From contig JAHBVT010000001.1 of assembly GCA_019637355.1 (NCBI GenBank), positions 1,767,192-1,831,191 on the forward strand: DNA of 64,000 bases, read 5' to 3'. The DNA is from Gemmatimonadaceae bacterium (GTDB lineage: Bacteria; Gemmatimonadota; Gemmatimonadetes; Gemmatimonadales; Gemmatimonadaceae). A program made the translations under genes and the position numbers. The number at the start of each line of letters is the position of its first letter. Position 1 is the first letter of the stretch. The notes below the pieces were generated by a model, which did not search any database, was not told the DNA's origin, and worked only from the letters and a program-made list of their open reading frames with translations. Shown piece by piece: positions 10,769-61,955 of this stretch.

Positions 10769-10903
10769 ACTCGGTGTCCTCGAGGGAAAGAGGGCGCCGC
10801 AGTGACGGACCTCGCCGGGACGCCGGCACTCGTCGCGAAACGACGAAGGCCACGCGCACCCGGCGAGCGGGTGGCGTGGCCCAATGCAGCGGCGCACGAC
10901 ACT
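10769..10903 (-). promoter_or_regulatory. Leader between TPP aptamer and receptor gene (expression platform)
   Basis: On the minus strand this leader holds a GGCCACGC / GCGTGGCC stem and a CGTCG-TTTCG-CGACG hairpin between the aptamer and the GAGGA ribosome site. It could fold in alternative ways when TPP binds. No clear poly-T terminator is seen, so control of translation initiation or Rho-dependent termination are both possible. Confidence 0.4.
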
Positions 10904-10989
10904 CGCCGCACTCCCTACGCCGGTCTAAACCGGGTCAGGTTCCAAGAGACTTTCTCAATCCCGCGGTCGCGGGATACCCCTGGCGGCTG
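10904..10989 (-). ncRNA. TPP (thiamine pyrophosphate) riboswitch, THI element
   Basis: Read on the minus strand, the aptamer contains the diagnostic conserved blocks in order. These are a GGGGTATCCC strand, TTGAGA (10953-10958; the family consensus is CTGAGA), GAACCTGA (10935-10942) and GCGTAGGGA (10912-10920). The closing stem is formed by GCCGC near 10985 and GCGGC at 10905-10909. The riboswitch binds thiamine pyrophosphate and normally switches the downstream gene off. The only gene downstream on this strand is the TonB-dependent receptor, then marR. Confidence 0.9.
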
Positions 10990-11085
10990 TCCGAGAAGGA
11001 ATAGCGCAACCGGACGCGGCGCGCCAGTGCGTGCGCCCGCGCGTGCGGCGGGGCGTGGCCCGTGCGTTCGGCGCACGCGGCGCGA

Positions 11086-48756: not shown

Positions 48757-49656
48757 TCAGTCCGGCTGCGGGTCGCCGGCTTGCGGGGTCGGCCGCTGCT
48801 GCGCCTCGCGCTGGGCCTGGCGCTCCCGCTCGCGACGTTCGCGCAAGGCCTTCACCGCGCGGTCGAACTCATCGTCGCGCATCTGCCGTGCCGACTGCGT
48901 CTGGATCTCGGCTCGCATCGCATCCAGCCGGCGCGCCCGCTCCATCGCAATCGGATTCGCCTGCACGTTGTTCAGCGCGAACATCGAGAGCAGCGGCGTC
49001 GGGATGGAGAAGTTGCCCAGGCGGATCGCCTGCTGGTCCATTCCCCACTTCTTGCCGCCGAGGTCGAAGGTCCAGTCGCCCGGCCGCCGCGCGTCCTCCG
49101 GGTGGTAGCGCGCCAGGGAGTCGGCGTAGGCGAGGATGCTGCGCTCGAGCATCAGCCGCAGCGTGTCGGCGCGGGTCAGCGGGACGATCGGCGCGACGAC
49201 CACGTCGCCGGGCTTCACCCAGAGGCGCTGGTCGGTGAACGTGGGCCGCAGGCCGCGGATCGGCCCACCGTCGCCGATGAGGTCGCCGTAGCCGCCGCCT
49301 GCGCCAGCATCGCGCGACGGTGCGGCCGGCACACCCGTGGGCGCCTCGGTCGGCGCGATGATCGGCGGCGGCGCCTCGGCGGGCGGCTCCTCGGTGATCG
49401 GCCGATTGTCACCGCCCGAGCGCGGGGCCTCACGATTGGCTTCGCCATCCGTCGGCAACTGCACCTCGAAGCGAATCACCTCGGGCACGATCGCTCGACC
49501 GCTGTCGTCGCGCAGCCAGTCGTAGGCCACGGGCACGAGGAAGGCCGGCACCACGATGCCGAGGAGCAGCAACTGCAGCACGAAGGCGGTCGCCGACGCA
49601 CGGGGGTCGGCCGAGCGCCGCTTCGGCAGCAGGGAGACACCCTTCCTCGGCTTCAC
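48757..49656 (-). CDS. Membrane-anchored proline-rich protein of unknown function
   Basis: 299 residues. One transmembrane helix (about 24-48) is followed by a Pro/Ala/Glu-rich linker (about 75-120), then a mixed region with FTDQRLWVKPGDVV and a Lys/Arg/Gln-rich helical tail (about 250-299). The layout recalls TonB-like proteins, but the TonB C-terminal motif is absent. It is the last gene of the long leftward overlap chain, starting in an ATGA overlap with the fumarylacetoacetase-family gene. I do not recognise a family. Confidence 0.6.
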   Translation of the reverse strand: MKPRKGVSLLPKRRSADPRASATAFVLQLLLLGIVVPAFLVPVAYDWLRDDSGRAIVPEVIRFEVQLPTDGEANREAPRSGGDNRPITEEPPAEAPPPIIAPTEAPTGVPAAPSRDAGAGGGYGDLIGDGGPIRGLRPTFTDQRLWVKPGDVVVAPIVPLTRADTLRLMLERSILAYADSLARYHPEDARRPGDWTFDLGGKKWGMDQQAIRLGNFSIPTPLLSMFALNNVQANPIAMERARRLDAMRAEIQTQSARQMRDDEFDRAVKALRERRERERQAQREAQQRPTPQAGDPQPD

Positions 49657-50267
49657 GCCTCGGCCACCACCGGATTGCGCACGCGGCTCCAGCCGACCAC
49701 CTCGACCTCCACTTCGTCGCCGGGCTGCAGCGGCTTCACGCCGGCCGGCGTCCCCGTCGCGACTACGTCGCCGGGTTCGAGCGTCATCGACTGCGAGATG
49801 TACGACAGCAGCTCAGCGATCGGAAACACCATCTCGCTGGCCTGGCCGCGCTGGCACTCCTCGCCGTTCACGCGCGTCACCACCGTCAGCGCATTGAGGT
49901 CCACCGCGCCGCGGCGCTCCTCGCCGATCGGGCAGAAGGTGTCGGAGCCCTTCGCGCGCCACCACTGCGCGTCGGCCTTCTGCCAATCGCGCGCTGAGAC
50001 GTCGTTTACCGCGACGATGCCGCGCACCGCGCGCGCGGCCTCCGCCGCACTCGCCTTCCGGAGCGTCGTGCCAATGACCACGCCGATCTCGCCCTCGAAG
50101 TCCACGCGGCCGGCATCGCGGGGCAGCACGATCGCGTCCCCGCTGGCGATCACCGTGGACGGTGGCTTCAGGAAGATGAGCGGGACCGTGGAGACCGCGT
50201 TGCCAAGCTCCTTGGCGTGCTCGCGATACGTGCGCCCCGCGCAGACGATCTTGGATGGGCGGCTCAT
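49653..50267 (-). CDS. Fumarylacetoacetate hydrolase family protein
   Basis: 204 residues, the size of the short FAH-fold enzymes. Motifs: KIVCAGRTYREHAKELG at the start, FLKPPSTVIASGD, VDFEGEIGVVIG (metal-binding Glu residues), VNDVSARDWQ, the conserved SQSMTLEPGDVVATGTPAGV. The family hydrolyses or decarboxylates beta-dicarbonyl acids with a divalent metal; acylpyruvase and oxaloacetate tautomerase activities are known. Start and stop overlap both neighbours by 4 bases. Confidence 0.85.
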   Translation of the reverse strand: MSRPSKIVCAGRTYREHAKELGNAVSTVPLIFLKPPSTVIASGDAIVLPRDAGRVDFEGEIGVVIGTTLRKASAAEAARAVRGIVAVNDVSARDWQKADAQWWRAKGSDTFCPIGEERRGAVDLNALTVVTRVNGEECQRGQASEMVFPIAELLSYISQSMTLEPGDVVATGTPAGVKPLQPGDEVEVEVVGWSRVRNPVVAEA

Positions 50268-52762
50268 CTAGGCAATGTACCCTCATAGAAGGCGCGGAGT
50301 TCGTCCCGGAGCATCGCCCAGGGGCCCTGCAGGCGCGTGGCGGGCGGCAGTCCCTCGGTGAGCCGGCGCCCGTAGCCCTTGGTCACCACGCGCGGATCGC
50401 AGATCACGACGGCACCGCGATCGGTGGCGGTGCGGATGAGCCGCCCGAAGCCCTGCTTGAGCCGCAGCGCCGCGTGCGGGATCATATACTCGGCGAAGGC
50501 GTCGCCGCCGGCAGCCTCGATGGCCTCGCACTGCGCCGCCGTCATCGGCTCGGTGGGCACGCGGAAGGGAATCTTCGCAATGACCATCCCGCGCAGCGCG
50601 CGACCGGGCACGTCGACGCCTTCCCAGAAGCTCGCGGTGCCGATGAGCACGGCATCGCCGTGCTCACGGAAGCGTCGCAGCAGTTCGTCGCGCGGCGCCT
50701 CGCCGTGCACGAGCAGCGGATGCGCCGCCTCGGCGCCGGCCGCGCGGAGCACCGCCGCCGCCTCGCGCACGTCACGATGGCTCGTGAACAGGACGAAGAC
50801 GCCACCCCCCGCCGCCGCAATCACGTCCTGCGTCGCCTCGAGCGTGCGCTTCAGGTGCCCCGGTCCGTCGGCGTTTGGCGCCGGGAAGTCGCTAGGGATC
50901 AGCAGCATCGCCTGGCGCGGGTAGTCGAACGGCGACGCCAACGAGGCCGTCACCGGCTCGAGTTCTTCGTCGTCGAGCCCGAGCCGCCGCGTGATGAAGT
51001 CGAAGCCGTCGCCCACCGAGAGCGTGGCGCTGGTCACGATGGCCGTCTCGACGCGGCGGAAGAGGTCCTCGCGCAGGATCGGTGCGAGGTCCAACGGCAC
51101 GGCCGTCGCGCCGACGTTGCGTTCGCTACCACGCAGTTCGAGCCAGCGCACGCGCGGCGCGCCGTCGCGGCCCGGCCGCAGCGCCGCGCGCAGCGCGTCG
51201 CTGGCCGTCTGCAGCCGCCGCGTCACGCCGCGCACTTCGTTGAGCAGCGGGGCCAGTTCCTCGGCCTTGGCCTCGTCGCTCTCCAAGCGGTCGCGCACCA
51301 TCCGCAGGCCGTCGCCCAGCAGATCCACCTCAGCGAGCAGGTCGTCCAGCGCCACGCCGAGTCCCGCCTGCCACACCGGTTCGTCGTCAAAGCTGTCGGT
51401 GAGTCGCACCACCGATTCGCTGCGCCCGCGCATCCACTCGCCGAGCAAGTCGCAGAGTTCGGCACTCTTCGTGCGCGCCGTCTGCAGCGACGGGACGAGC
51501 CGGGCGCGGACGAGGTCGAGGCTCGCCACCGAGTACAGGTCCTTGCTCGAGGAGAGCTTCCGCTCCAGTGCCGGCAGCAATCCCTTGCCCCGCCGTTCGA
51601 GGCGCGAGAACAGGCGTTCGAGCCCGCGCCGTGAGACCTGCTGCCCCAAGTGCGCGGCCGCCGCATCCTCGAGGTGATGGCCTTCGTCGATCACCAGTCG
51701 CTTGTAGGCCGGCAACACCGCCGCCTCGTCCCAGCGTCCGGAGGCGCGCCGCACCGCGATGTCCGCCATCAGCAGGTGATGGTTCACGACGACCACATCC
51801 GCCTGCGCCGCGGCGCGCCGCGCCTTGAACACGAAGCAGGGATCGAAGTGCGGGCACTTGAGTCGCGTGCAGAGGTCGCCCTCGGCCGCGACTTCGTCCC
51901 ACACCTCGCTGCGCGGCGGCACCGGCAAGTCCGCCAGCGAACCATCCTGCGTCTTCTCCGCCCAGTCCTCCAGCATCCCGAGGTCCGCCGAGGCGTCGTC
52001 TTCGAAGAGTACCGGCGCCTGGAGGCGCGCCTGCTCGAGGCGCTGCAGGCAGAGGTAGTTCTTCCACCCCTTGAGCAGCGCGAAGCGCACCGGCTGGTCC
52101 TTCAGCGCCTGCTTGAGGAACGGCAGGTCCTTGGCGGTAAGCTGTTCCTGCAGGGTGATGGTGTTGGTCGAGACCACCGTGCGCTCGCCGCTCTCGGCGG
52201 CCCAGCGCAGCGCCGGCACCAGGTACCCCAGCGACTTACCCACGCCCGTGCCGGCCTCGAGCAGACCGACGCCCCCGCGCGTGTAGAGCTGCGCGATCAA
52301 GCGCGCCATCTCGCGCTGGCTGGGGCGATCCTCGTAGCGGCCCAGCGTGGCGGCAATCGGTCCGCCGGGCCCGAGCGCGCCGGCGACGTCGCCGGGCTCC
52401 AGGTGAGCCGGCTCGGCCTGCCGCGGCACCTCGACGACCACGTACAGCCGCGAGGCGTCGTTGTCGGTGATGGCGAAGCCGATGCCGTCATCGTGCATCC
52501 GCGCGGCGACGGCGAGGTCGGCATCGCTCGGCTCCAGCAGGCCACTCGGATGGTTGTGCAGGAGCAGTTCGCCGCGATTGGCGAAGCCCGGCAGCGCGAG
52601 CACGCTGGCCACGTCACCGCGAGCCGCGACGCGGGCCGTCTGTATCACGCCGGCGTCATTGACGGTGCAGACGAAGCAGACCTCGCGGCCGCCGGCGAGG
52701 CGGATGGCCGAGCGAACGGCGGCGGCGGCGCCCGGGGCGAGGCGCCCGGTCTCGCCGCTCAC
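50264..52762 (-). CDS. JAMM/RadC-like domain fused to DinG-type iron-sulfur DNA helicase
   Basis: 832 residues. Residues about 24-112 form a RadC-like JAMM domain: Glu27 in GREV, then HNHPSG (69-74) with Ser79 and Asp82, fulfilling the full HxHPx6SxxD zinc pattern. From about 145 a DinG/XPD superfamily-2 helicase begins: Walker A GTGVGKS (171-177), four Cys for the 4Fe-4S cluster (238, 298, 303, 309), and DEGH (359-362). C-terminal helicase motifs include SFWEGVDVPG and QGFGRLIRT. The helicase is expected to unwind 5' overhang or R-loop DNA. The role of the JAMM part is unknown. The gene overlaps its neighbours by 4 bases at both ends. Confidence 0.85.
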   Translation of the reverse strand: MSGETGRLAPGAAAAVRSAIRLAGGREVCFVCTVNDAGVIQTARVAARGDVASVLALPGFANRGELLLHNHPSGLLEPSDADLAVAARMHDDGIGFAITDNDASRLYVVVEVPRQAEPAHLEPGDVAGALGPGGPIAATLGRYEDRPSQREMARLIAQLYTRGGVGLLEAGTGVGKSLGYLVPALRWAAESGERTVVSTNTITLQEQLTAKDLPFLKQALKDQPVRFALLKGWKNYLCLQRLEQARLQAPVLFEDDASADLGMLEDWAEKTQDGSLADLPVPPRSEVWDEVAAEGDLCTRLKCPHFDPCFVFKARRAAAQADVVVVNHHLLMADIAVRRASGRWDEAAVLPAYKRLVIDEGHHLEDAAAAHLGQQVSRRGLERLFSRLERRGKGLLPALERKLSSSKDLYSVASLDLVRARLVPSLQTARTKSAELCDLLGEWMRGRSESVVRLTDSFDDEPVWQAGLGVALDDLLAEVDLLGDGLRMVRDRLESDEAKAEELAPLLNEVRGVTRRLQTASDALRAALRPGRDGAPRVRWLELRGSERNVGATAVPLDLAPILREDLFRRVETAIVTSATLSVGDGFDFITRRLGLDDEELEPVTASLASPFDYPRQAMLLIPSDFPAPNADGPGHLKRTLEATQDVIAAAGGGVFVLFTSHRDVREAAAVLRAAGAEAAHPLLVHGEAPRDELLRRFREHGDAVLIGTASFWEGVDVPGRALRGMVIAKIPFRVPTEPMTAAQCEAIEAAGGDAFAEYMIPHAALRLKQGFGRLIRTATDRGAVVICDPRVVTKGYGRRLTEGLPPATRLQGPWAMLRDELRAFYEGTLPR

Positions 52763-54018
52763 GTCTTCAGCGGCCGCTTCCGTGCGGCGGGGAACAGCAC
52801 GTTGTTGAGGATCAGCCGGTAGCCCGGCGAGTTGGGATGCAGCGCCAGGTCAGTCGGCGGCGCGCCGATGGCGTGCTGCGGATCCTCGGGGTCGTGCCCC
52901 CCTAGGTACGTGAACGTGCCGCGCCCGTAGCTGCCGTGGATGTACTTCACCCAGGGCGCGCCTTCCTCGTGCGCCAGGACGGTGATGCCGGGCTTGAGCG
53001 TGCGGCGCGTGAACGACGTCGTCACGCCGTAGTAGTCGCGCAGCACGTTGCGGTGGTTCTGCACCAGCATCGTGGCGACGGGGTCGAACTTGGCCGAGAA
53101 GCCGAAGAGCGTGAACGTCCCCAGCGGCTGACGGCGCGACGGCACGTTCACCTGGTGGCCGTCGATGTCGCTCATCGCGTTCACGCCGCCGCCGAACTCC
53201 AGCCGCGCGCCCTCGGTGGCGAAGGTGCGGTCCCAGCGCAGCTTCGTCTCCGCATCGGGATCCATCGGCGTGCCGTCGGTGCTCGCGCCGGCGATGTCCA
53301 CTTGGAAGGCGGCGATCGCGAGTTCGATGGTCTCGGTGGCGCCGCACATCGCGAAGAGGAACCCGCCCCGCTCCACGAAGGCGCGCAGCCGGTCGGCCAC
53401 GGTCTTCTTGAGCGTGGGGATGTCGGCAAGGTTGAAGCGCCGCGCCATCTGCAGGTCGCGCTCGCGCGCCTGCTGGAACCACGGCGCGTCGCGGAAGCCG
53501 AGGTACAGCTTGTGCTGCTGTCCCGTGAAGTCCTCGTGATGCAGATGAATCCAGTCAAACTGCGACAGGTCCGTGGAGAGGACGTCGTCGTCCCAGATGT
53601 TCGTGTACGGGATGCCGGCGTAGGTGAGCGCGAGCGTCACGGCGTCGTCCCAGGGCATCGCCTGCGGCGGCGAGTACACGGCGATGCGCGGCGCCTTGTC
53701 CAGCGGCACGGCGTCCATATTCCCGTCGGCGATCTCGCGCCGGATCGCGGCCACACGCCCTTCGTCGAGCGGCTCGAAGCTCACGCCCGCCAGCAAGGCC
53801 GAGCGCCGCAGGCCCGGCAGGTCCGGAATCAGGAAGCTGCCGCCGCGATAGTTGAGCAACCACTCGCTGCGCACGCCATCCGTCAGCGCACCGAAGGTCA
53901 GCCCATATGCCTTGAGGTGATTCGCCTGCGCGTCGTCCATCGGCACGAGCAGATGCTGCGCACGCAGCGGCAGCGCGGCGCAGATCGCCACGAACGCGAG
54001 AAGCAGAGCGCGCCTCAT
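52759..54018 (-). CDS. Secreted protein with GATase1/ThuA-like fold (often labelled asparagine synthetase B)
   Basis: 419 residues with a signal peptide (about 1-20, ending PLRAQ). The mature start LLVPMDDAQANHLKAYG and LLNYRGGSFLIPD are the hallmarks of a family often named asparagine synthetase B, yet no AsnB domain exists. GGFLFAMCGATET (about 225) looks like a nucleophile-elbow region of class-I amidotransferase-like folds. C-terminal residues include YGRGTFTYLGGHDPED. Function unknown; it is in an overlap chain with a TPR protein and DUF4159/DUF4175 genes. Confidence 0.7.
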   Translation of the reverse strand: MRRALLLAFVAICAALPLRAQHLLVPMDDAQANHLKAYGLTFGALTDGVRSEWLLNYRGGSFLIPDLPGLRRSALLAGVSFEPLDEGRVAAIRREIADGNMDAVPLDKAPRIAVYSPPQAMPWDDAVTLALTYAGIPYTNIWDDDVLSTDLSQFDWIHLHHEDFTGQQHKLYLGFRDAPWFQQARERDLQMARRFNLADIPTLKKTVADRLRAFVERGGFLFAMCGATETIELAIAAFQVDIAGASTDGTPMDPDAETKLRWDRTFATEGARLEFGGGVNAMSDIDGHQVNVPSRRQPLGTFTLFGFSAKFDPVATMLVQNHRNVLRDYYGVTTSFTRRTLKPGITVLAHEEGAPWVKYIHGSYGRGTFTYLGGHDPEDPQHAIGAPPTDLALHPNSPGYRLILNNVLFPAARKRPLKT

Positions 54019-55709
54019 CGGCCGGCTCGGTCGGAAGGAAGGGCGTCGAGCTCGCGCCGCGCCTGCGGCACCAGCGCGCTGCCCGGATACTCCAGGATCA
54101 CGTGTTCAAACTGCAACCGCGCGCCGCGCACGTCGCCGCGGCGCCGCAGGAGCCGTCCCCACTCCAGCCGCGCCTCAGGCGCCTCGGGCGCGGCGGCATA
54201 GCTCTCGGCCACGCGCGTCCACAGCGGCAGCGCCCGCGCATCGGCGCCGCGTGCGGTTTCCAGGCGCGCGGCCATCGTGACCAACAGCGACGAAGCATCC
54301 GCCAACGACTCCGCCGCCTGCGTGAAGTAGCGGACGGCCGCGGCGGTGTCACCGCGGGCCAACGCCAGGAAGGCATCGCCGGCCTGCGTCGACCGCTCCG
54401 CGCGCGTGCGCGAGAGCAGGGCCAGCGCGGCCACCGCTTCCGGCGCGGTGACATCGCCGAAACGCAGGCTGCGCCGCGCCGTCACGAGGTCGCCGTCGAA
54501 CAGTGCCAGCCAGCCGCCCACGGCATCGTCCGCATCCAGTGGCGCCTCGGCGAGCGCGGCCCGCGCGCGCGCCACGTTGCCCGAGCGCACCCAGGCCCAG
54601 GCGATCGTCCGCTGGAATGCGCGCGCCTGCGCACCCAGTTGCGGCGCGGCCTCGGCGAGCACGCGTTCGGCTTCCTCGCCGCGTCCGAGCCGCGCGAGCG
54701 CCTCGAGCTCCACCCCGACCAGCTCCGGACGCATTGGCCCGCCCGGGCCACGTGCCGCGCGCACCAGGCGCAGCGCGACCTCGGGTTCGTTGGAGCGCAT
54801 CGCGGCGACGGCACCGCGTTGCGCCGTGCCCACCAGCGGCTTCGCCCGATGCATCGCCACGAGCGCGTCGCGCGCCGCAGCCCAGGCCTGCACGCGCTCG
54901 GCCTCCTCGGCGAACTCTCCCCACACGAACACTGTCGTGTCGCTCGGCGGCAGCGCCTGCAGCACCTGCCAGCCCGTGAGCGGTGCACCCCAGCCGAGTT
55001 CCAGCAGCGCCATCGCCAGGCGAGCCCCAATCGGGGCATCGGACGTCACCAACGCTGCGCGCAGCGAATCGCGCTGCTCCACCGGCGCCGGCGAAAGCGA
55101 GAACACCGCCGCCGATTCGAAGTACGGCTGGTCACGCATCGTCTCGCGCCACGCTTCGGCGGCGGCGCTCCAGCGCCCCAATGCGGCGCGCATCTGCGCC
55201 GCCTCGAGCAGCAGTTCGCGCGTGCCGCCCAGCGTGGCGGTCGCTTCCTGCAACACCGAATCCGCGGCGGCCGCGCGACTGTTGTAGATGAGGATGCGGG
55301 CGTAGTCGCGGAACGGCGCGACGTCGCGCGGGCGCAGGGCACGCCACTCGCGGAACGCCGAGTCGGCCCGCTCATCGCGACCGAGTACCACCAAGGTGCG
55401 GAGTTGGGCGCCACGGAGCTGCGCGTCGGCGGGCGTCAGCGGGATCAGCGAATCCAGCAGCGGCACGAGGCGCGCTTCTTCACCCGTCATCGTGTACACG
55501 CGCTCCAACCCGAGCACGCCCGGCACCACGGCGCCGGCGTCGATGACCTCGATCCACGCGGCACGCGCCTGTTCGTAGCGCCCGCCGTTCTCGTGATCGA
55601 TGGCGCGCGCGATTAGCGGCGCGGTGGGATTGCCCAGCGGGCGCTGCTGCGCCGGCAGCGACACCGCAGCGCTCAGCACCAGCGCAAGACCGATGACACC
55701 CCACCTCAC
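54015..55709 (-). CDS. Secreted TPR-like repeat protein
   Basis: 564 residues. A signal peptide (about 1-21, ending SLPAQQ) precedes repeated Ala/Arg/Leu-rich helical hairpins of TPR style throughout, with a more standard TPR near the C-terminus (EARLEWGRLLRRRGDVRGARLQFEHVILEYPGS). It is probably a periplasmic scaffold. It overlaps its neighbours by 4 bases at both ends, between the DUF4175 gene and the ThuA-like gene. Confidence 0.72.
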   Translation of the reverse strand: MRWGVIGLALVLSAAVSLPAQQRPLGNPTAPLIARAIDHENGGRYEQARAAWIEVIDAGAVVPGVLGLERVYTMTGEEARLVPLLDSLIPLTPADAQLRGAQLRTLVVLGRDERADSAFREWRALRPRDVAPFRDYARILIYNSRAAAADSVLQEATATLGGTRELLLEAAQMRAALGRWSAAAEAWRETMRDQPYFESAAVFSLSPAPVEQRDSLRAALVTSDAPIGARLAMALLELGWGAPLTGWQVLQALPPSDTTVFVWGEFAEEAERVQAWAAARDALVAMHRAKPLVGTAQRGAVAAMRSNEPEVALRLVRAARGPGGPMRPELVGVELEALARLGRGEEAERVLAEAAPQLGAQARAFQRTIAWAWVRSGNVARARAALAEAPLDADDAVGGWLALFDGDLVTARRSLRFGDVTAPEAVAALALLSRTRAERSTQAGDAFLALARGDTAAAVRYFTQAAESLADASSLLVTMAARLETARGADARALPLWTRVAESYAAAPEAPEARLEWGRLLRRRGDVRGARLQFEHVILEYPGSALVPQARRELDALPSDRAGR

Positions 55710-58700
55710 GGAGTCCCCCCAGCGTTCAGGCGGCGGAAGTACTCGATCACCACGCGACGGTCCTCCGGGCTCAGCCCGCGCAACTCTTCCCAGGTCGGCA
55801 CGCGATAGCGATCCGCCGCGGCGCCACTCGCACGGCCGTCCGGCGTGACGCGCGTAGACTCGCGCGCAGCCCGCGCCTCGCGCCGTTGGCTTTCGTCGCG
55901 CTGATCCTGCTCCAGCGAACGGCCGGCGTCGAGCATCCGGCGCAGCAACTGCTCCTGGCGCGCCTTGGTCGTCGGGTCCACGGCGCCTTGGTCCAGCGCC
56001 GCGGCCAGCGCGCGCGCTTCACGCGCCATCTCCTGCGCACGTCCGGTGGGGTCGGCGTCGCTGAGGTCGTCGAGCTGCCGCGCCACTTCGCGCTGCGATC
56101 GCGCCAGCTCGCGGGCCTGCGCGCGCGCGGCTTCGCCCTGCCCGTCACGCCCGTCCTGCGGTTGTCCAGTGGGCAGCAAGCTCTGCATCTGCGCGTTGAG
56201 TCCGCCCTGCTGCTGCGCCAGCTCCTGCATCTGCTTCAGCATCTCGGCCATCCCGGTGGCGCTGCGGCTGTCGGCCGCGCGCTCGCGATCACGCGTCAAC
56301 TGCGCCGCCGCCTGCCGCAATGCATCCGCCGACTCCCGCATCGCCTGCTCGGTCTGGCCGCGCCGCCCTTCGGCCGCCTCGCGCGAGGCCTGCGCCGAGC
56401 GCTGCCGCGCGCGCTCCATCAACTCCCGCGAGCGCGGGGAGACCAGGGCCGAACGCCGTGACTCGTCCTCGAGGCGCTGCTGCGCGGCCTGCACGCCCTG
56501 CTGCAGCGCCGACTGTTGCGCACGCAGGCTGGCCTCGGTGTTGTCGGCGCGCGCCTGCTGCGCGAGCTGGTCCTGCTCGCGGGCGAGCTGCATCATCTCC
56601 TGCACCGACTGGTCCAGCGCCGAGGTCAGCTCGGCTTTCCACTCGCCGACTTGGCGCTCGCGGGCCTCGCCCAGCGCCTCGGCCGCGCGCTGCATCGCGT
56701 CCGAGGCCTGCTGCGCGTTGGCGGCGGCGTTGCGCGGGTCCTGCCCCGCCTGCTGCATCGCCTGCGCGGCGGCCTGCGCCTGCCGTGCGCCTTCGTTGGT
56801 CCGCTCGGCACCGGTCTGCGCGTTGGCCTGCTCCAGCCGCTGCGCCAACTGCTCGGCCTGCTCGGCCAGCGCCTTGGAGCGCTGCTGCATCGCCGCCGCT
56901 TCCTCCGGCGTCGGCGGACGCCGCTGCGCCGAGTCCGCGAGCGCCCGCTGCTCTTCGGCGAGTTCCTGGCCGCGGTCGGCGAGCGTCTGCATCTGGCCTT
57001 CGAGCGCCGCACGGCGCAGCATCTCGGCGCTGCGTTCGAGTTGCTCGCGCATCCGCTGCTGGGCCTGCGCCAGCTCCTGCAACGACTGCCGCGTGCGCGC
57101 GCCATCCAGTTGCTGCGTGGCCGACTCCAGGCGTTGCATCGCCGCCAGCATCTCCGGCGTCATCGCTTCGCGCATCAGGCGCTGGGCTTCCTGCAACTGC
57201 TGCTGCAACGCGGGATCCAGCGCACCTGCCTGCCGCAGCCGCTCCTCCAACTGCCGCGCCGCTTCCTCAAGGTTCTGCACCTGCTGCTGCAGCTCATGCT
57301 GCTGCTCGCCGATCTCTCGCGCACGCTCGGCGCCTTCGTAGCCCAGCGGCTCGCGCGGCTGGCCGGAGTTCGATTCACCCGCGCGCGGTTGCCCCGCCGG
57401 CACGCCCTGCTGCTGGCCTTGCTGCTGCGCCTGCTGCTGCGCCTGTCCGATCGGCGGCTGCTCACGCGCCGCCTCGGCGCCGCGCTCGCCGCGCGAACGC
57501 GCCTCGTTGGCCGTGCGCTCGGCCAGCGCGGCCTGGGCCTTCGCGGCCGCATCGGCGGCGGCGACTGCCTCGGCGGCCGCTTCATCGGCGGCCGTACGCG
57601 CCTGCTCCGCCGTCGGCACGCGCAGCAGCACCGGCGCGCTCACCGCGCGGCGTTCGCCCGGGGCCGCATCGCGCGCTACCAGCGTCACCTCGAGTCCATC
57701 GCCTGGCTGCAGCGCAAAGTCAGCCAGCGCCAGCACCGCACTGCCGCTCCACAGAGTCTCGCGCGGCGTGGCGAGTTCCCGCAGCTGCGGCGGCGCATCG
57801 GAATCCACGCGGCGCAGCCGCAGCGCGACCTCGGCCAGTCCGTAGTCATCCTGCGCAAGCAGCTCCAACGCGATGCTCGCATCAGCCGCCACGAAGCGCT
57901 CGCCTACCGGCGCAAGGATCTCCACGCGCGGCAGCGAGTCCTCCACGACGTCGATCTCCAGCGGCAGCGGCAGGTCCTCCACCACCTGCGCCGTGCCCAG
58001 CACCTCCCAGCGCCACTGCGCGCGCTGTCGCGGAATCAGCGCGCCGGCAAAGCGCACGCCGTTCACCGCCGGCAGTACCACGCGCGCGCCGTCGCTGACG
58101 AGCACCGCCGATTCCAGGGCCTGCGACGAGCGGCCCGTAATCTCGAGCCGCGTGCCCGCGGGCACACGCAACGGTTCGTCCGCCGGCAGCGATTCGTCGC
58201 CGCGGCCGAGGTACGCCGGGTAGCGGGCGCGGATGGCGACGTCACCGACGAAGGGGCGATCGACCACCGCGATGTCGACCGAATCCCGACCGGCGCGACC
58301 GTCCAGCGCGACGACGACGAGATCCGCCGAGACCGACGTGATCTCGATCGTCGCCGAGCCCGCGGCATCGACTTCGAGCCAGGTCTCCCGCCAGTCAGCA
58401 CCGAGCGTGCGCCAGCGGACTTCGACCGCGCGGCGGCCCGGCGCGTCCACCGTGAGGCGCAGGTCCGCGCCGCGCGTGATACGCGTCGGCGCGTCAACGA
58501 TCGCGAGCGGCCCCACGAGGTTGCCGCGCCAGGCGCCCAGCGGATTCAGCAGCGCGTGCCAGCCATCGGCACGGCGCGCGTACGACGTGGACGCCAGCAG
58601 CAGCACCTGCCCCAGCGCGACGACCGACAGCACCGCCGCGCGCTGCAAACGACGCCGCAGGCGCGGCGCCGGCCGCGACTCAGCCGCCGCCAGCGCCGCC

Positions 58701-59062
58701 GACGCCTGTGCCACCGCGAGGTCCGCGAACACACCGCTGCCTTCGACCTCGAGCACGCCCACCAGCGCGCCGCGCCGCAGGCCTTGCTCGCGCTCGATGG
58801 CCGCCGCCACCGCGCGCGGCTCCGCGCGCGCCGCCAGCCGACGCCGCAAGAAGCCACCCAATGCCACCGCCGCAGCGAGCGCAAGCACCCACGCCAGCAG
58901 CGGCAGAATGCGCGGCGCGATGAGCCAGCCGCCGTCGGCGAGCCACGCCGCCGCCGATGTCAGCGCGCCCACCAGCACCGTAAGCGGCAGCAGCGTGCCC
59001 GCCAACCACGCGCGCCGGCGCAGGCGCTGTACCTCGGCGTGCACCACGTGCAGCGAACTCAT
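55706..59062 (-). CDS. DUF4175-family large coiled-coil membrane protein
   Basis: 1118 residues. Two transmembrane helices (about 20-42 and 50-70) are followed by a beta-rich periplasmic region (about 150-460) and then a very long helical region (about 480-1060) rich in Gln, Ala, Arg and Glu, with repeated QQ-runs and heptad spacing. The short C-terminal YRVPTWEELRGLSPEDRRVVIEYFRRL is conserved in DUF4175 relatives. Function unknown. It follows the DUF4159 gene in an ATGA overlap. One of the three CATG sites (57295) lies in its Gln-rich part. Confidence 0.75.
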   Translation of the reverse strand: MSSLHVVHAEVQRLRRRAWLAGTLLPLTVLVGALTSAAAWLADGGWLIAPRILPLLAWVLALAAAVALGGFLRRRLAARAEPRAVAAAIEREQGLRRGALVGVLEVEGSGVFADLAVAQASAALAAAESRPAPRLRRRLQRAAVLSVVALGQVLLLASTSYARRADGWHALLNPLGAWRGNLVGPLAIVDAPTRITRGADLRLTVDAPGRRAVEVRWRTLGADWRETWLEVDAAGSATIEITSVSADLVVVALDGRAGRDSVDIAVVDRPFVGDVAIRARYPAYLGRGDESLPADEPLRVPAGTRLEITGRSSQALESAVLVSDGARVVLPAVNGVRFAGALIPRQRAQWRWEVLGTAQVVEDLPLPLEIDVVEDSLPRVEILAPVGERFVAADASIALELLAQDDYGLAEVALRLRRVDSDAPPQLRELATPRETLWSGSAVLALADFALQPGDGLEVTLVARDAAPGERRAVSAPVLLRVPTAEQARTAADEAAAEAVAAADAAAKAQAALAERTANEARSRGERGAEAAREQPPIGQAQQQAQQQGQQQGVPAGQPRAGESNSGQPREPLGYEGAERAREIGEQQHELQQQVQNLEEAARQLEERLRQAGALDPALQQQLQEAQRLMREAMTPEMLAAMQRLESATQQLDGARTRQSLQELAQAQQRMREQLERSAEMLRRAALEGQMQTLADRGQELAEEQRALADSAQRRPPTPEEAAAMQQRSKALAEQAEQLAQRLEQANAQTGAERTNEGARQAQAAAQAMQQAGQDPRNAAANAQQASDAMQRAAEALGEARERQVGEWKAELTSALDQSVQEMMQLAREQDQLAQQARADNTEASLRAQQSALQQGVQAAQQRLEDESRRSALVSPRSRELMERARQRSAQASREAAEGRRGQTEQAMRESADALRQAAAQLTRDRERAADSRSATGMAEMLKQMQELAQQQGGLNAQMQSLLPTGQPQDGRDGQGEAARAQARELARSQREVARQLDDLSDADPTGRAQEMAREARALAAALDQGAVDPTTKARQEQLLRRMLDAGRSLEQDQRDESQRREARAARESTRVTPDGRASGAAADRYRVPTWEELRGLSPEDRRVVIEYFRRLNAGGTP

Positions 59063-59796
59063 CGCCCCACTCCGCTGGTCACGGCGTAGACGAACAGGTT
59101 CACGCCCATTCGCAGCGCCTGCTCGTGCAGTTCGGGCGGATCGTCCGGATACGTGCCGACGTCCTCCCAGCCGTTCCCGAGGTCGGCTTCGTGCGTGTAG
59201 TACACAGCGAGGCGGTCGCCGATGAAGATCCCGAAGCCGCGCGGCGCCGCGCCGTCGTGCTCGTGGATCTTCGGGACGCCCTGCGGGAACGCGTACACGA
59301 TGCGGTAGATCGGATGATCCAGCGGCACGTCCACGAGCTCGCGGTCCGGGAACACGCGGGCGATCTCGCGGCGGAACGCGGCGTCGAGGCCGTAGTTGTC
59401 GTCCGCGTGCAGGAAGCCGCCCTGCAGCAGGTAGGCGCGCAGCCGCTCGACTTCACGGTCGCTGAAGCGGATCTGGCCGTGCCCGGTCAGGTGCAGGAAG
59501 GGATGGTCCCAGAGCTTCTCGTCGGTGAGACGGACGCGCTGCTCCTGCGGCTCCACATCCAGCGTGGTGCGCGCGCGGATGGCGCGGATCAGGTTCGGCA
59601 GGCTCGAGGGATTCGCGTACCAGTCGTCGCCGTCGTACTGCAGGCGCGCGACGCTGAGGCGCACGGATTTCGCTGGCGCAGCTGAAGCATCGGCCGCGGC
59701 CATCGGCGCAGGAGCAGGCGCCGCCGCCAGCGCCGCCAGCGTCCCGAGCGCCAGCGCCCCGAGCGCCGCGAAGCGGAGCCCCCGCGTCCGTCGCAT
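59059..59796 (-). CDS. DUF4159-domain exported protein
   Basis: 245 residues. A hydrophobic signal segment (about 8-32) precedes the DUF4159 domain (about 45-240) with RLQYDGDDWYANPSSLPNLI, TGHGQIRFSDREVERLRAYL and GGFLHADDNYG. The domain belongs to the GATase1-like folds but lacks an obvious nucleophile Cys. DUF4159 genes commonly sit beside large coiled-coil membrane proteins, as here. The ATG used is 1 base into the rsmI stop; a GTG one codon upstream would give a 4-base overlap. Confidence 0.75.
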   Translation of the reverse strand: MRRTRGLRFAALGALALGTLAALAAAPAPAPMAAADASAAPAKSVRLSVARLQYDGDDWYANPSSLPNLIRAIRARTTLDVEPQEQRVRLTDEKLWDHPFLHLTGHGQIRFSDREVERLRAYLLQGGFLHADDNYGLDAAFRREIARVFPDRELVDVPLDHPIYRIVYAFPQGVPKIHEHDGAAPRGFGIFIGDRLAVYYTHEADLGNGWEDVGTYPDDPPELHEQALRMGVNLFVYAVTSGVGR

Positions 59797-60635
59797 CACG
59801 CCTCGTGCGCCAGACGGTACGCGACGTTCCGCGACGCCCCCGCCGCGAGCAGCGCCTGCTGGATCTCGCGCGCGCCCTTGCCCGCCGCCCGCAGCTCGGC
59901 GGCGCGCGCGCGCAGGGCGCCTTCGTCTGGGGCGCCGTCCGGCGCCCCGTCCAGCACAATCACGATCTCGCCTCGCGGTTCGTGGTCTGCGTAGTACGCA
60001 GCGAGCTCGGCCACCGTTCCCCGCCGGAACTCCTCGTACTGCTTGGTCAGCTCGCGGGCGACCACCGTTGCCCGCTCGCCCGCCCCGGCCGCCGCCAGAT
60101 CCGCCAACGTCGCCGCCAGCCGCGAGGGCGCCTCGTACAGCACCGCCGTGTGCGCCAGCGCCACCACCTCGCCCAGCACCCGCGTGCGCTCACCGCCCTT
60201 GCGCGGCAGGAAGCCGAAGAACGTGAATCGACCGGTCGCCAGTCCCGCGCCAGCCAGCGCCGCCAGCAGCGCCGAGGCACCCGGCACCGCCGAGACCTGC
60301 ACGCCCGCCGCGATGGCGGCCTGCACAAGGCGAAGGCCCGGGTCGCTGAGCAGCGGCGTGCCCGCGTCGCTCACGAGGGCCAGCGACTCGCCCGCCACCA
60401 GGCGCGCCACGAGGCCGGGCGTCGCCTGCGCCTCGTTGTGCTCGTGGTAGGCGAGCAACGGCGTGCGGATCGCGAAGCGCTCGCAGAGCACGCGCGTGTG
60501 CCGCGTGTCCTCGGCCAGCACGGCCGCCACCTGCTGCAGGACCTCCACCGCCCGCGGGGTCATATCCCCGAGGTTGCCGATCGGCGTGCTGACGATGTAC
60601 AGGGTCCCGGGAGTGGAGGCGCCGTCGGCGCTCAC
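59796..60635 (-). CDS. rsmI: 16S rRNA 2'-O-ribose C1402 methyltransferase
   Basis: 279 residues of the tetrapyrrole-methylase fold: LYIVSTPIGNLGDMTPRAV, VLAEDTRHTRVL, YHEHNE, LVSDAGTPLLSDPG, VPGASALLAALAGAGL and YEAPSRL. RsmI methylates C1402 in the decoding site of 16S rRNA using SAM. Start taken as the GTG overlapping the upstream stop (GTGA); another GTG one codon earlier has similar support from GAAGGTGAA. It is the second gene in the overlap chain. Confidence 0.92.
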   Translation of the reverse strand: MSADGASTPGTLYIVSTPIGNLGDMTPRAVEVLQQVAAVLAEDTRHTRVLCERFAIRTPLLAYHEHNEAQATPGLVARLVAGESLALVSDAGTPLLSDPGLRLVQAAIAAGVQVSAVPGASALLAALAGAGLATGRFTFFGFLPRKGGERTRVLGEVVALAHTAVLYEAPSRLAATLADLAAAGAGERATVVARELTKQYEEFRRGTVAELAAYYADHEPRGEIVIVLDGAPDGAPDEGALRARAAELRAAGKGAREIQQALLAAGASRNVAYRLAHEA

Positions 60636-61612
60636 CACTTCACCTTCCACGGCAGGGCGTCGAACAGCCCGGCCGCCTGGAACACGTGCCGCCGCGAGGC
60701 GGTGAGGTCGTGCAGCACATCCTCGGGCGTGGTGTCGTCGGGCGCGGCGGCCCAGAGAATGTCGGCGATCCACGCCGCAATCGCCTTGGTCAGCGTCGCC
60801 GCATCGGTCACCGGATCCTTGAGCGTGGGCAGGTTGGGCGAGAAGCGCTCGAGCGTGCCGTGCTGCGCCACCAGCGCGCGGCGCGCACCTTCCGTCACCT
60901 CCGCCGCCGACGCCTTGCCGCCCTGCTGCAGCCGCGCAATCAGCGCACCGATCAACTCGCGGTACGCCTGGATGAGTGCCGGCGAGGCCTGCGCCGGCAG
61001 CGGTGGCGGAGGCGTCCACAGGCGCACCGTCGGCGGCGAAGCGAGCACGCGGCCCTCGAGCAGCGTGCGCAACAGCATCGTCACGTCGCCGGGGCGCGGA
61101 TCCACGAAGTACCCGCGCGCGGGCCGGCCACCGGCCAGCGCCACGTAGTTCACCGCGCCGTCGGCGATGACTTCCAGCGCGCCGTCGTGCATCGTGCCGT
61201 CGAGATAGCCAAGCAACGCCGTCGCATCGGTGGGCACCAGTTCCCGCGGCAAGTGTTCCGGCTCGCCCACCTGCGTCGCGAACATCAGGTCGAGTTGCTC
61301 GTCGGTGGCTTCGTGGAAGCAGATGCTGCCGTACTCGGCGGCCGTGGGCACGCGACCGATCGCATCACTGATCGCCACCGGCACAAAGCGCCGGCCGTCG
61401 GTGCTCGAGGTGGCGTTCACCACTTCGCCGCCCTCCATATAGAGGACGATCAGTTCTTCCGGCATCCACACGGCCACGTAGCCGGACACCCGCGCCGACC
61501 GGTCGCGCTTGGCGTCCGTCAGCAGGTTGCGTAGATGCACGTACGCCAAGCGGGTCCGTTGCAGCAGGACCCGCTTGGCGGGGTATCGAATGGCGTCGCG
61601 GAGCGGGGGCAT
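60632..61612 (-). CDS. Conserved hypothetical protein, possible PATAN/DUF4388-like N-terminus
   Basis: 326 residues with no signal peptide or membrane helix. The opening HLRNLLTDAKRDRSARVSGYVAV, then LIVLYMEGGEVVNAT, resembles the small beta domain found in DUF4388/PATAN proteins, which sense or adapt signalling proteins. The middle is mixed; the C-terminal half is helical (YRELIGALIARL...). The start is the ATG of MPPLRDAIRYPAK. It follows trxA by 16 bases and overlaps rsmI by 4. Confidence 0.55.
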   Translation of the reverse strand: MPPLRDAIRYPAKRVLLQRTRLAYVHLRNLLTDAKRDRSARVSGYVAVWMPEELIVLYMEGGEVVNATSSTDGRRFVPVAISDAIGRVPTAAEYGSICFHEATDEQLDLMFATQVGEPEHLPRELVPTDATALLGYLDGTMHDGALEVIADGAVNYVALAGGRPARGYFVDPRPGDVTMLLRTLLEGRVLASPPTVRLWTPPPPLPAQASPALIQAYRELIGALIARLQQGGKASAAEVTEGARRALVAQHGTLERFSPNLPTLKDPVTDAATLTKAIAAWIADILWAAAPDDTTPEDVLHDLTASRRHVFQAAGLFDALPWKVKW

Positions 61613-61628: not shown

Positions 61629-61955
61629 TCAGGCCGCGTGCTGCTCGAACTTCGCCGCCAACGCCGGCTTCGGCACGGCACCGATCACCTGGTCCACCAG
61701 CTTGCCGTCCTTGAAGAACAGCAGCGTGGGGATCGAGCGCACCTGGAAGCGCATCGCCGTCTTCTGGTTCGCGTCCACGTCCAGCTTGGTCACCTTCACG
61801 CGACCGGCGAACTCCTCGCTCAGTTGTTCGAGAATCGGGGCGATCATCCGGCAGGGACCGCACCACGTGGCCCAGAAATCCACCACGGCCAAGCCCTGGT
61901 GCTGCTCCACTTCGCTCGCGAACGACTCGTCCGTCACCGTCACCGTCTTCGACAT
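61629..61955 (-). CDS. trxA: Thioredoxin
   Basis: 108 residues, standard thioredoxin 1 size. Active site WCGPC (about 31-35) sits within VVDFWATWCGPCRM; the conserved KLDVDANQ, RSIPTLLFFKDGK (cis-Pro) and late VGAVPK region follow. It reduces protein disulfides using thioredoxin reductase. The ATG has GGAGAGAG before it. It is the first gene in a leftward run of ten. Confidence 0.95.
   Translation of the reverse strand: MSKTVTVTDESFASEVEQHQGLAVVDFWATWCGPCRMIAPILEQLSEEFAGRVKVTKLDVDANQKTAMRFQVRSIPTLLFFKDGKLVDQVIGAVPKPALAAKFEQHAA

Follow-up and report, generated by a model that had tools for sequence, protein, structure and literature searches.

Why should nine consecutive genes, including those for a ribosomal RNA (rRNA) methylase, a helicase and proteins of the cell envelope, be linked one to the next by overlapping stop and start codons? 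The question is raised by positions 48757 to 61612 of a 64,000-nucleotide stretch of a Gemmatimonadaceae bacterium genome (assembly GCA_019637355.1, contig JAHBVT010000001.1), which was analysed at its full length and is hereafter called the window. A preliminary description, made from the letters of the window, had taken the tight coupling of this 13-kb unit to imply matched production of the envelope proteins with the methylase and the helicase. We favour a narrower reading, to which we assign a probability of roughly 0.68: a four-gene module, encoding a DUF4159 protein, a DUF4175-like protein, a TPR protein and a ThuA-like protein, is flanked by housekeeping genes, and its products belong to one cell-envelope assembly. 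The order of the module genes is conserved in several phyla, and the DUF4159, DUF4175-like and ThuA genes are present or absent together even when unlinked. That all four products join in one envelope assembly is what we infer from this pattern, and the module would most likely encode a membrane-anchored periplasmic enzyme complex that is related to, but distinct from, the MoxR/Bat clusters. The 13-kb run itself is a string of genes conserved in Gemmatimonadota, with the module flanked by trxA, rsmI, DinG and a fumarylacetoacetate hydrolase (FAH) family gene, all ordinary housekeeping genes.

Reading of the frames and junctions upheld the reported layout. The segment 48757–61612 holds nine minus-strand genes with eight successive 4-base stop/start overlaps (ATGA or GTGA), at the junctions PATAN-like to rsmI, rsmI to DUF4159, DUF4159 to DUF4175, DUF4175 to TPR, TPR to ThuA, ThuA to DinG, DinG to FAH and FAH to proline-rich; the second of these can, as had been stated, be read as either 1 base or 4 bases. 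The trxA stop lies 16 bases before the next ATG, and all ten genes, trxA included, are open frames on the minus strand from 61955 down to 48757. The unit is bounded upstream by a divergent mce gene (start 62060) and downstream by a convergent lexA gene (stop 48741), both named from reading of the sequence. The genes are listed below from first to last. Where occurrence in relatives is given, it refers to 40 loci from 40 of the 134 genomes that carry a ThuA-like gene among 150 Gemmatimonadota genomes drawn from the whole phylum, picked for spread over genera and families and for long contigs.

61629..61955, minus strand: trxA, thioredoxin, first gene of the unit (Pfam Thioredoxin 114.6 bits; in 35/40 relatives' loci).
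60632..61612, minus strand: 326-residue protein, called PATAN-like in the preliminary description (no family match; in 12/40 loci).
59796..60635, minus strand: rsmI, 16S rRNA (cytidine1402-2'-O)-methyltransferase (TIGR00096 equivalog 226.1 bits, cut-off 167.9).
59059..59799, minus strand: DUF4159 protein, 246 residues, module gene 1, putatively exported from the look of its N-terminus (PF13709 226.9 bits, cut-off 25.9).
55706..59062, minus strand: large DUF4175-like protein, 1118 residues, module gene 2 (PF13779 24.3 bits, below the cut-off of 27.3).
54015..55709, minus strand: TPR protein, 564 residues, module gene 3, putatively exported from the look of its N-terminus (weak TPR_2/TPR_6 and YbgF-type matches below cut-offs; place kept in 39/40 loci).
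52759..54018, minus strand: ThuA-like or class I glutamine-amidotransferase-like protein, 419 residues, with an export leader, module gene 4 (fold match, no Pfam or NCBIfam model).
50264..52762, minus strand: DinG/YoaA-type helicase with an N-terminal RadC-like JAMM domain (HNHPSG; PF13307 148.8 bits, RadC 22.2 bits against a cut-off of 22.1).
49653..50267, minus strand: FAH family protein (PF01557 222.8 bits; in 27/40 loci).
48757..49656, minus strand: last gene of the unit, encoding a proline-rich protein with a hydrophobic stretch at the N-terminus (in 30/40 loci).

The window and 18 stretches of 20 kb from the same genome were used to gauge how unusual the run is. In this sample, 76 of 252 co-directional gene pairs (30%) overlap by 4 bases, in runs of one (29 times), two (13), three (3), four (1) and eight (1), and independence of the junctions would give about 0.09 runs of eight or more per genome; gene calls and start choices were those of our own simple caller, and the window had been chosen as notable. 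The run of eight is therefore unusual, as the outlier of the sample, uncommon yet not extraordinary. One study names −4 and −1 as the commonest junctions in prokaryotes generally and describes short overlaps as enriched among the subunits of heteromeric complexes (PMC10666635). With 4-base overlaps at this background frequency, and with flanking housekeeping genes that are also conserved in order, overlaps and order could be the product of plain compaction and shared inheritance with no common function. We regard this explanation as unlikely, given the block losses and the joint occurrence of unlinked genes described below.

The preliminary description had proposed conservation of gene order as a check on its reading, and loss of order, together with separate transcription starts inside the run, as what would overturn it. 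Order is kept: tblastn searches with the window proteins found trxA, rsmI, DUF4159, DUF4175-like, TPR, ThuA and DinG co-located in 32 of the 40 Gemmatimonadota loci, and the four module genes in 33. The junctions differ along the string, a start that yields a 4-base overlap being available at 89 of 140 junctions from rsmI to ThuA in the relatives, as against 21 of 86 along ThuA-DinG-FAH-proline-rich (p = 1e-8, a guide only, the genomes being related). Several relatives have about 1.2 kb, room for one gene, between the FAH and proline-rich genes, with open reading frames (ORFs) of 391–394 residues there. In one locus (L062), a 398-residue gene stands right after ThuA; its best models are those of LL-diaminopimelate aminotransferase, below their cut-offs. 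Window-type DUF4159 was found somewhere in the genome in 20 of 20 genomes searched, comprising those whose fetched locus lacks it and controls.

Separation of the module from its flanks was observed within the same phylum. Sixteen of the 150 genomes have no ThuA-like gene, and rsmI is retained in all 16. Fifteen of them have no match to the window's DUF4175-like protein, and their DUF4159 matches reach at most 92 bits, compared with 219–356 across the phylum for copies of the window type (two programs). In the sixteenth, G130, DUF4159 and DUF4175-like genes both occur, on a contig that ends inside the latter. The rsmI locus was fetched from each ThuA-less genome except G094, giving 15 loci. 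In three of these (L184, L189 and L190), DinG comes immediately after rsmI, overlapping it by 4 bases in L184; in L192 and L193, two other called ORFs stand between them; in L182 and L183, rsmI is followed by FAH and in L195 by the proline-rich gene. The four loci L185–L188 have an unassigned ORF of 347–412 residues after rsmI, with DinG and FAH not found in the fetched stretch, and the remaining loci are that of G130 (L194) and two too incomplete to read (L191, L196). On an rsmI tree of 51 rows, with fragments shorter than 180 residues omitted and G130 scored as module-bearing, module presence changes five times; three changes are forced by well-supported branches, and one is doubtful, at G011, a short fragment on a long branch. 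The rsmI gene is independent of the module genes.

Outside Gemmatimonadota, the module genes behave as a set even where they are scattered. Among 118 Bacteroidota genomes, DUF4159 occurs in 84, the ThuA-like gene in 83 and the DUF4175-like gene, which our own profile A3 detects in this phylum, in 84. All three are present in 83 genomes and none in 34, ThuA never occurs alone, and in the one remaining genome, G266, ThuA is missing and the DUF4159 and DUF4175 copies score lower (181 and 72.5 bits); for ThuA against DUF4159, Fisher p is 7e-29. This co-occurrence is not explained by linkage, because only 3 of the 83 genomes carry ThuA and DUF4159 at a distance of 20 kb or less. On a tree of SprA from 26 Bacteroidota, built with 18 of the 20 module-bearing genomes in which SprA was found (G276 and G303 were omitted, their best match being split), the presence of the trio changes four times, with three changes forced. 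Compaction and shared inheritance leave unexplained why three mostly unlinked genes should be all-or-none in 117 of 118 Bacteroidota through several separate events, and why the module should be lost as a block with its flanks kept.

If the module were part of the type IX secretion system or of the gliding machinery, it would be expected to travel with SprA. The phylum range is similar, and SprA was found in 20 of 20 module-bearing Bacteroidota tested, yet it also occurs in module-less genomes (8/35 in Bacteroidota, 7/10 in Gemmatimonadota), in only 8 of 15 module-bearing Gemmatimonadota and not in the window's own genome. These counts come from 80 chosen genomes, comprising 35/35 ThuA-less and 20/83 module-bearing Bacteroidota, and 10/16 ThuA-less and 15/134 module-bearing Gemmatimonadota, with matches accepted at E values up to 0.001, some of them below the family cut-off. 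Type IX secretion was rejected as an explanation or obligate link, since the distribution of SprA does not follow that of the trio, and we give this alternative next to no credence.

The best 80 of 592 relatives of the ThuA-like protein share 46–83% identity with it and come from Gemmatimonadota, Bacteroidota, KSB1, Calditrichaeota, Zixibacteria, Eisenbacteria, Neomarinimicrobiota, Cloacimonadota, WOR-3, Latescibacterota, Kapabacteria and Chlorobiota/Ignavibacteria, among others; across phyla, the family is about 50% identical. The order DUF4159, DUF4175-like, one or two genes, ThuA recurs in KSB1, Neomarinimicrobiota, Eisenbacteria and three more loci; the loci concerned are L124, L125, L126, L130, L137 and L168. 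For 41 of 43 such ThuA loci the genome was searched, and 38 of the 41 genomes have DUF4159 (G159, G163 and G170 do not). Many other phyla have the envelope genes at sites apart from rsmI and DinG. Neighbourhoods were read for the 80 loci except the eight with no called ThuA (L135, L136, L144, L151, L159, L166, L167, L178), and in low-GC loci, where only a longest-ORF finder was used, genes may be split or missed. One locus titled Sphingomonadales (L141) has a Flavobacteriales-like neighbourhood that matches a Crocinitomicaceae locus (L169), and is probably a misassigned contig of a metagenome-assembled genome. A 4-base overlap joins ThuA to a flippase-like gene in L176, a locus from Ignavibacteria.

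Among 57 other DUF4159 loci, rsmE, encoding another 16S rRNA methyltransferase, stands directly before DUF4159 on the same strand, within about 200 bases, in 16 (L199, L202–L204, L210, L211, L217–L222, L224, L229, L242, L246). RsmE was not found in 40 of the 57 loci checked, and one more has it 1.3 kb away. In Gemmatimonadota, the partner is rsmI.

The whole 13-kb run could in principle be one pathway, tying rRNA methylation and DNA repair to envelope building by rigid co-translation. Eight overlaps in a row, the long kept order from trxA and rsmI to DinG and the rsmE–DUF4159 adjacency would all suit such a pathway. It is nevertheless very improbable: losses of the module have left rsmI in place, junctions towards the 3' end are loose (21/86) and the genes are scattered in Bacteroidota, and rsmE, found next to DUF4159 in a minority of loci, is a different enzyme. 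The grouping of the methylase and the helicase with the envelope genes as one function is accordingly probably wrong, rsmI having stayed in 16/16 genomes and adjoining DinG in L184, L189 and L190. The preliminary interpretation thus holds in part: it was right to take the envelope genes as belonging together and the run as conserved, but an obligatory tie of their production to that of the rRNA methylase and helicase is unsupported.

DUF4159 has a solved relative (4i66, E 3.7e-12). The PF13779 match of the DUF4175-like protein covers residues 282–472 only and does not reach the cut-off, hence the suffix "-like". Its AlphaFold2 model, of low overall confidence (predicted local distance difference test (pLDDT) 79.3, predicted template-modelling score (pTM) 0.50), shows N-terminal helices that are probably a membrane anchor, about three immunoglobulin (Ig)-like domains (residues 185–482) and a long helical tail; Foldseek searches with this model returned only generic Ig/FN3 sandwiches. 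Full-text searches of an open-access library under these two names gave one paper for DUF4175 and none for DUF4159.

For the ThuA-like protein, no curated family of Pfam or NCBIfam was matched at E 0.01, which also holds for the PATAN-like and proline-rich proteins, and a PDB sequence search with its profile A1 gave chance-level matches only. Its predicted model (pLDDT 87.5, pTM 0.88) matches many GATase1, ThuA and GH42-domain chains over residues 108–415, with Z scores of 10–12.7, and on this basis the protein is predicted to have a class I amidotransferase-like fold. In that fold, the nucleophilic cysteine sits between a strand and a helix. In the model, C225 lies between strand 220–224 and helix 226–236, and C225, H375, D376 and E378, together with H158, H161, E162 and D163, are invariant in 29 of 29 rows. 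Tat-like (twin-arginine) RR-x-F/W leaders are seen in 8 of 38 called ThuA orthologues (L048, L053–L058, L064), a hint that export may take place in the folded state or with a bound cofactor. A literature search on signature proteins and on "asparagine synthetase B", a name for Bacteroidota relatives, found nothing on the ThuA-like family.

In the assembly that we propose, the DUF4175-like protein would serve as inner-membrane anchor and scaffold through its N-terminal helices, Ig-like domains and long helical tail, with DUF4159 and the TPR protein as exported partners. The ThuA-like protein would be the exported enzyme, with Cys225, His375 and Glu378 in a glutamine-amidotransferase fold acting on some envelope substrate. 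Termination-reinitiation at the 4-base overlaps is the most likely means of coupling translation, and within the module it would help to keep the members of the complex at matching levels; the overlaps at the 3' end of the run look like ordinary compaction.

Several points weigh against the envelope assembly. The case is built on sequence comparison and predicted structures, the DUF4175 identity being drawn from a weak Pfam match and our own profile. The fetched ThuA loci of families f7, f8 and f9 and of genome G034 have no DUF4159, which is present in 33 of the 40 loci. The co-occurrence counts treat related genomes as independent, though repeated events appear on two trees; the rsmI and SprA trees are single-gene trees, and their change counts cannot separate gain from loss. 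Outside Gemmatimonadota, the family survey covers DUF4159, DUF4175-like and ThuA, and TPR was followed in Gemmatimonadota only. Catalysis by the ThuA-like protein is suggested by fold and invariant residues, and the invariant HxHHED motif (158–163, with a single row deviating at 160) might just as well mark a metal site.

A wider proposal, which we advance tentatively and at somewhat less than even odds, is that DUF4159, the DUF4175-like and the ThuA-like proteins, with a TPR partner, form the core of an undescribed envelope machine inherited from an ancestor common to Gemmatimonadota, Bacteroidota, KSB1, Zixibacteria, Neomarinimicrobiota and relatives. Through an exported amidotransferase-like enzyme that depends on Cys, the machine would modify some component found only in the envelope of these bacteria, and it would have been lost whole several times. 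Three uncharacterised proteins are thereby brought together in a single system that can be tested and whose presence and absence can be followed through two large phyla, and the substrate of the ThuA-like enzyme, if found, would name an envelope chemistry common to a whole superphylum.

Further observations concern the neighbourhood of the module and the rest of the unit. In the deepest Gemmatimonadota family, f9 (L063, L072, L073), TPR-ThuA is followed by a murE-like gene, with polysaccharide-flippase-like genes near and, in L063, also a mraY-like gene, the murE-like and mraY-like genes being named by reading. For the 326-residue product of 60632..61612, a PDB sequence search gave nothing above chance; with no Pfam or NCBIfam match either, the label PATAN-like is unsupported. 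The DinG/YoaA equivalog models match the product of 50264..52762 only below their cut-offs. Its RadC-like JAMM domain is fused ahead of the helicase, and HNHP[ST]G is present in 30 of 33 aligned DinG rows (the window and 32 relatives across the phylum). A sigma-70 scan of the region gave 0 promoters, which has little weight at about 72% GC, and a terminator scan gave one terminator-like site, fewer than the shuffled mean and uninformative. An Rfam scan of the window found nothing but tRNAs and a thiamine pyrophosphate (TPP) riboswitch, all outside the run; the riboswitch lies at 10894–10991 on the minus strand (59.1 bits, cut-off 54.3).

Among known systems, the DUF4175-like protein was set beside AdvA of Acinetobacter baumannii by annotation, the likeness being the DUF4175 name only; AdvA is described as a DUF4175-annotated, essential cell-division protein (PMC7481262). 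The junctions resemble the −4 overlaps of pairs coupled by termination-reinitiation, as described in PMC10666635. They differ in forming a run of eight in one unit, and the 4-base stop/start arrangement of translationally coupled overlapping genes is found at 8 of 8. Another study (PMC6728339) is said to concern −4 overlaps in such coupled pairs as well. The ThuA-like protein resembles 1t0b, 2gk3 and 3rht, of ThuA-like/GATase1 fold, in its predicted fold (Z 12.2, 11.8 and 11.4; root-mean-square deviation 3.4–3.7; 193–209 aligned residues) and in having a Cys between strand and helix and His and Glu near the end; it differs in its low identity (9–11%), extra N-terminal part (20–107), export leader and HxHHED-type motif.

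The closest comparison is with the MoxR-DUF58-BatA clusters of Bat or aerotolerance type, which share DUF4159 with the window set. The same genome has two further DUF4159 genes, each clustered with MoxR, DUF58 and a BatA-like gene and each beside a gene of 656–704 residues that was classed as a DUF4175 relative by position; Pfam was checked for one cluster (L074, where DUF58 and BatA matched) and for two proteins of the other (L075). These clusters, and five MoxR genes above 200 bits in the genome, would allow the module to be of MoxR/Bat type, drawing on MoxR, DUF58 and VWA components that are encoded at other sites and also serve other clusters, a possibility that we judge rather unlikely but take more seriously than the other alternatives. 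The ten genes of the run have no Pfam match to MoxR (AAA_3), DUF58 or BatA/VWA, among the module neighbourhoods plotted for other phyla a MoxR is labelled only near L146, and the DUF4159 copies of the two MoxR clusters, at 152 and 172 bits, fall well short of the 227 bits of the window type. Because the defining features of a MoxR/Bat cluster are absent, the module was not filed as one. Possessing TPR and ThuA-like genes instead, the window set looks like a separate branch of the MoxR/Bat theme, in which the ATPase/VWA half has been replaced by the TPR and ThuA-like proteins.

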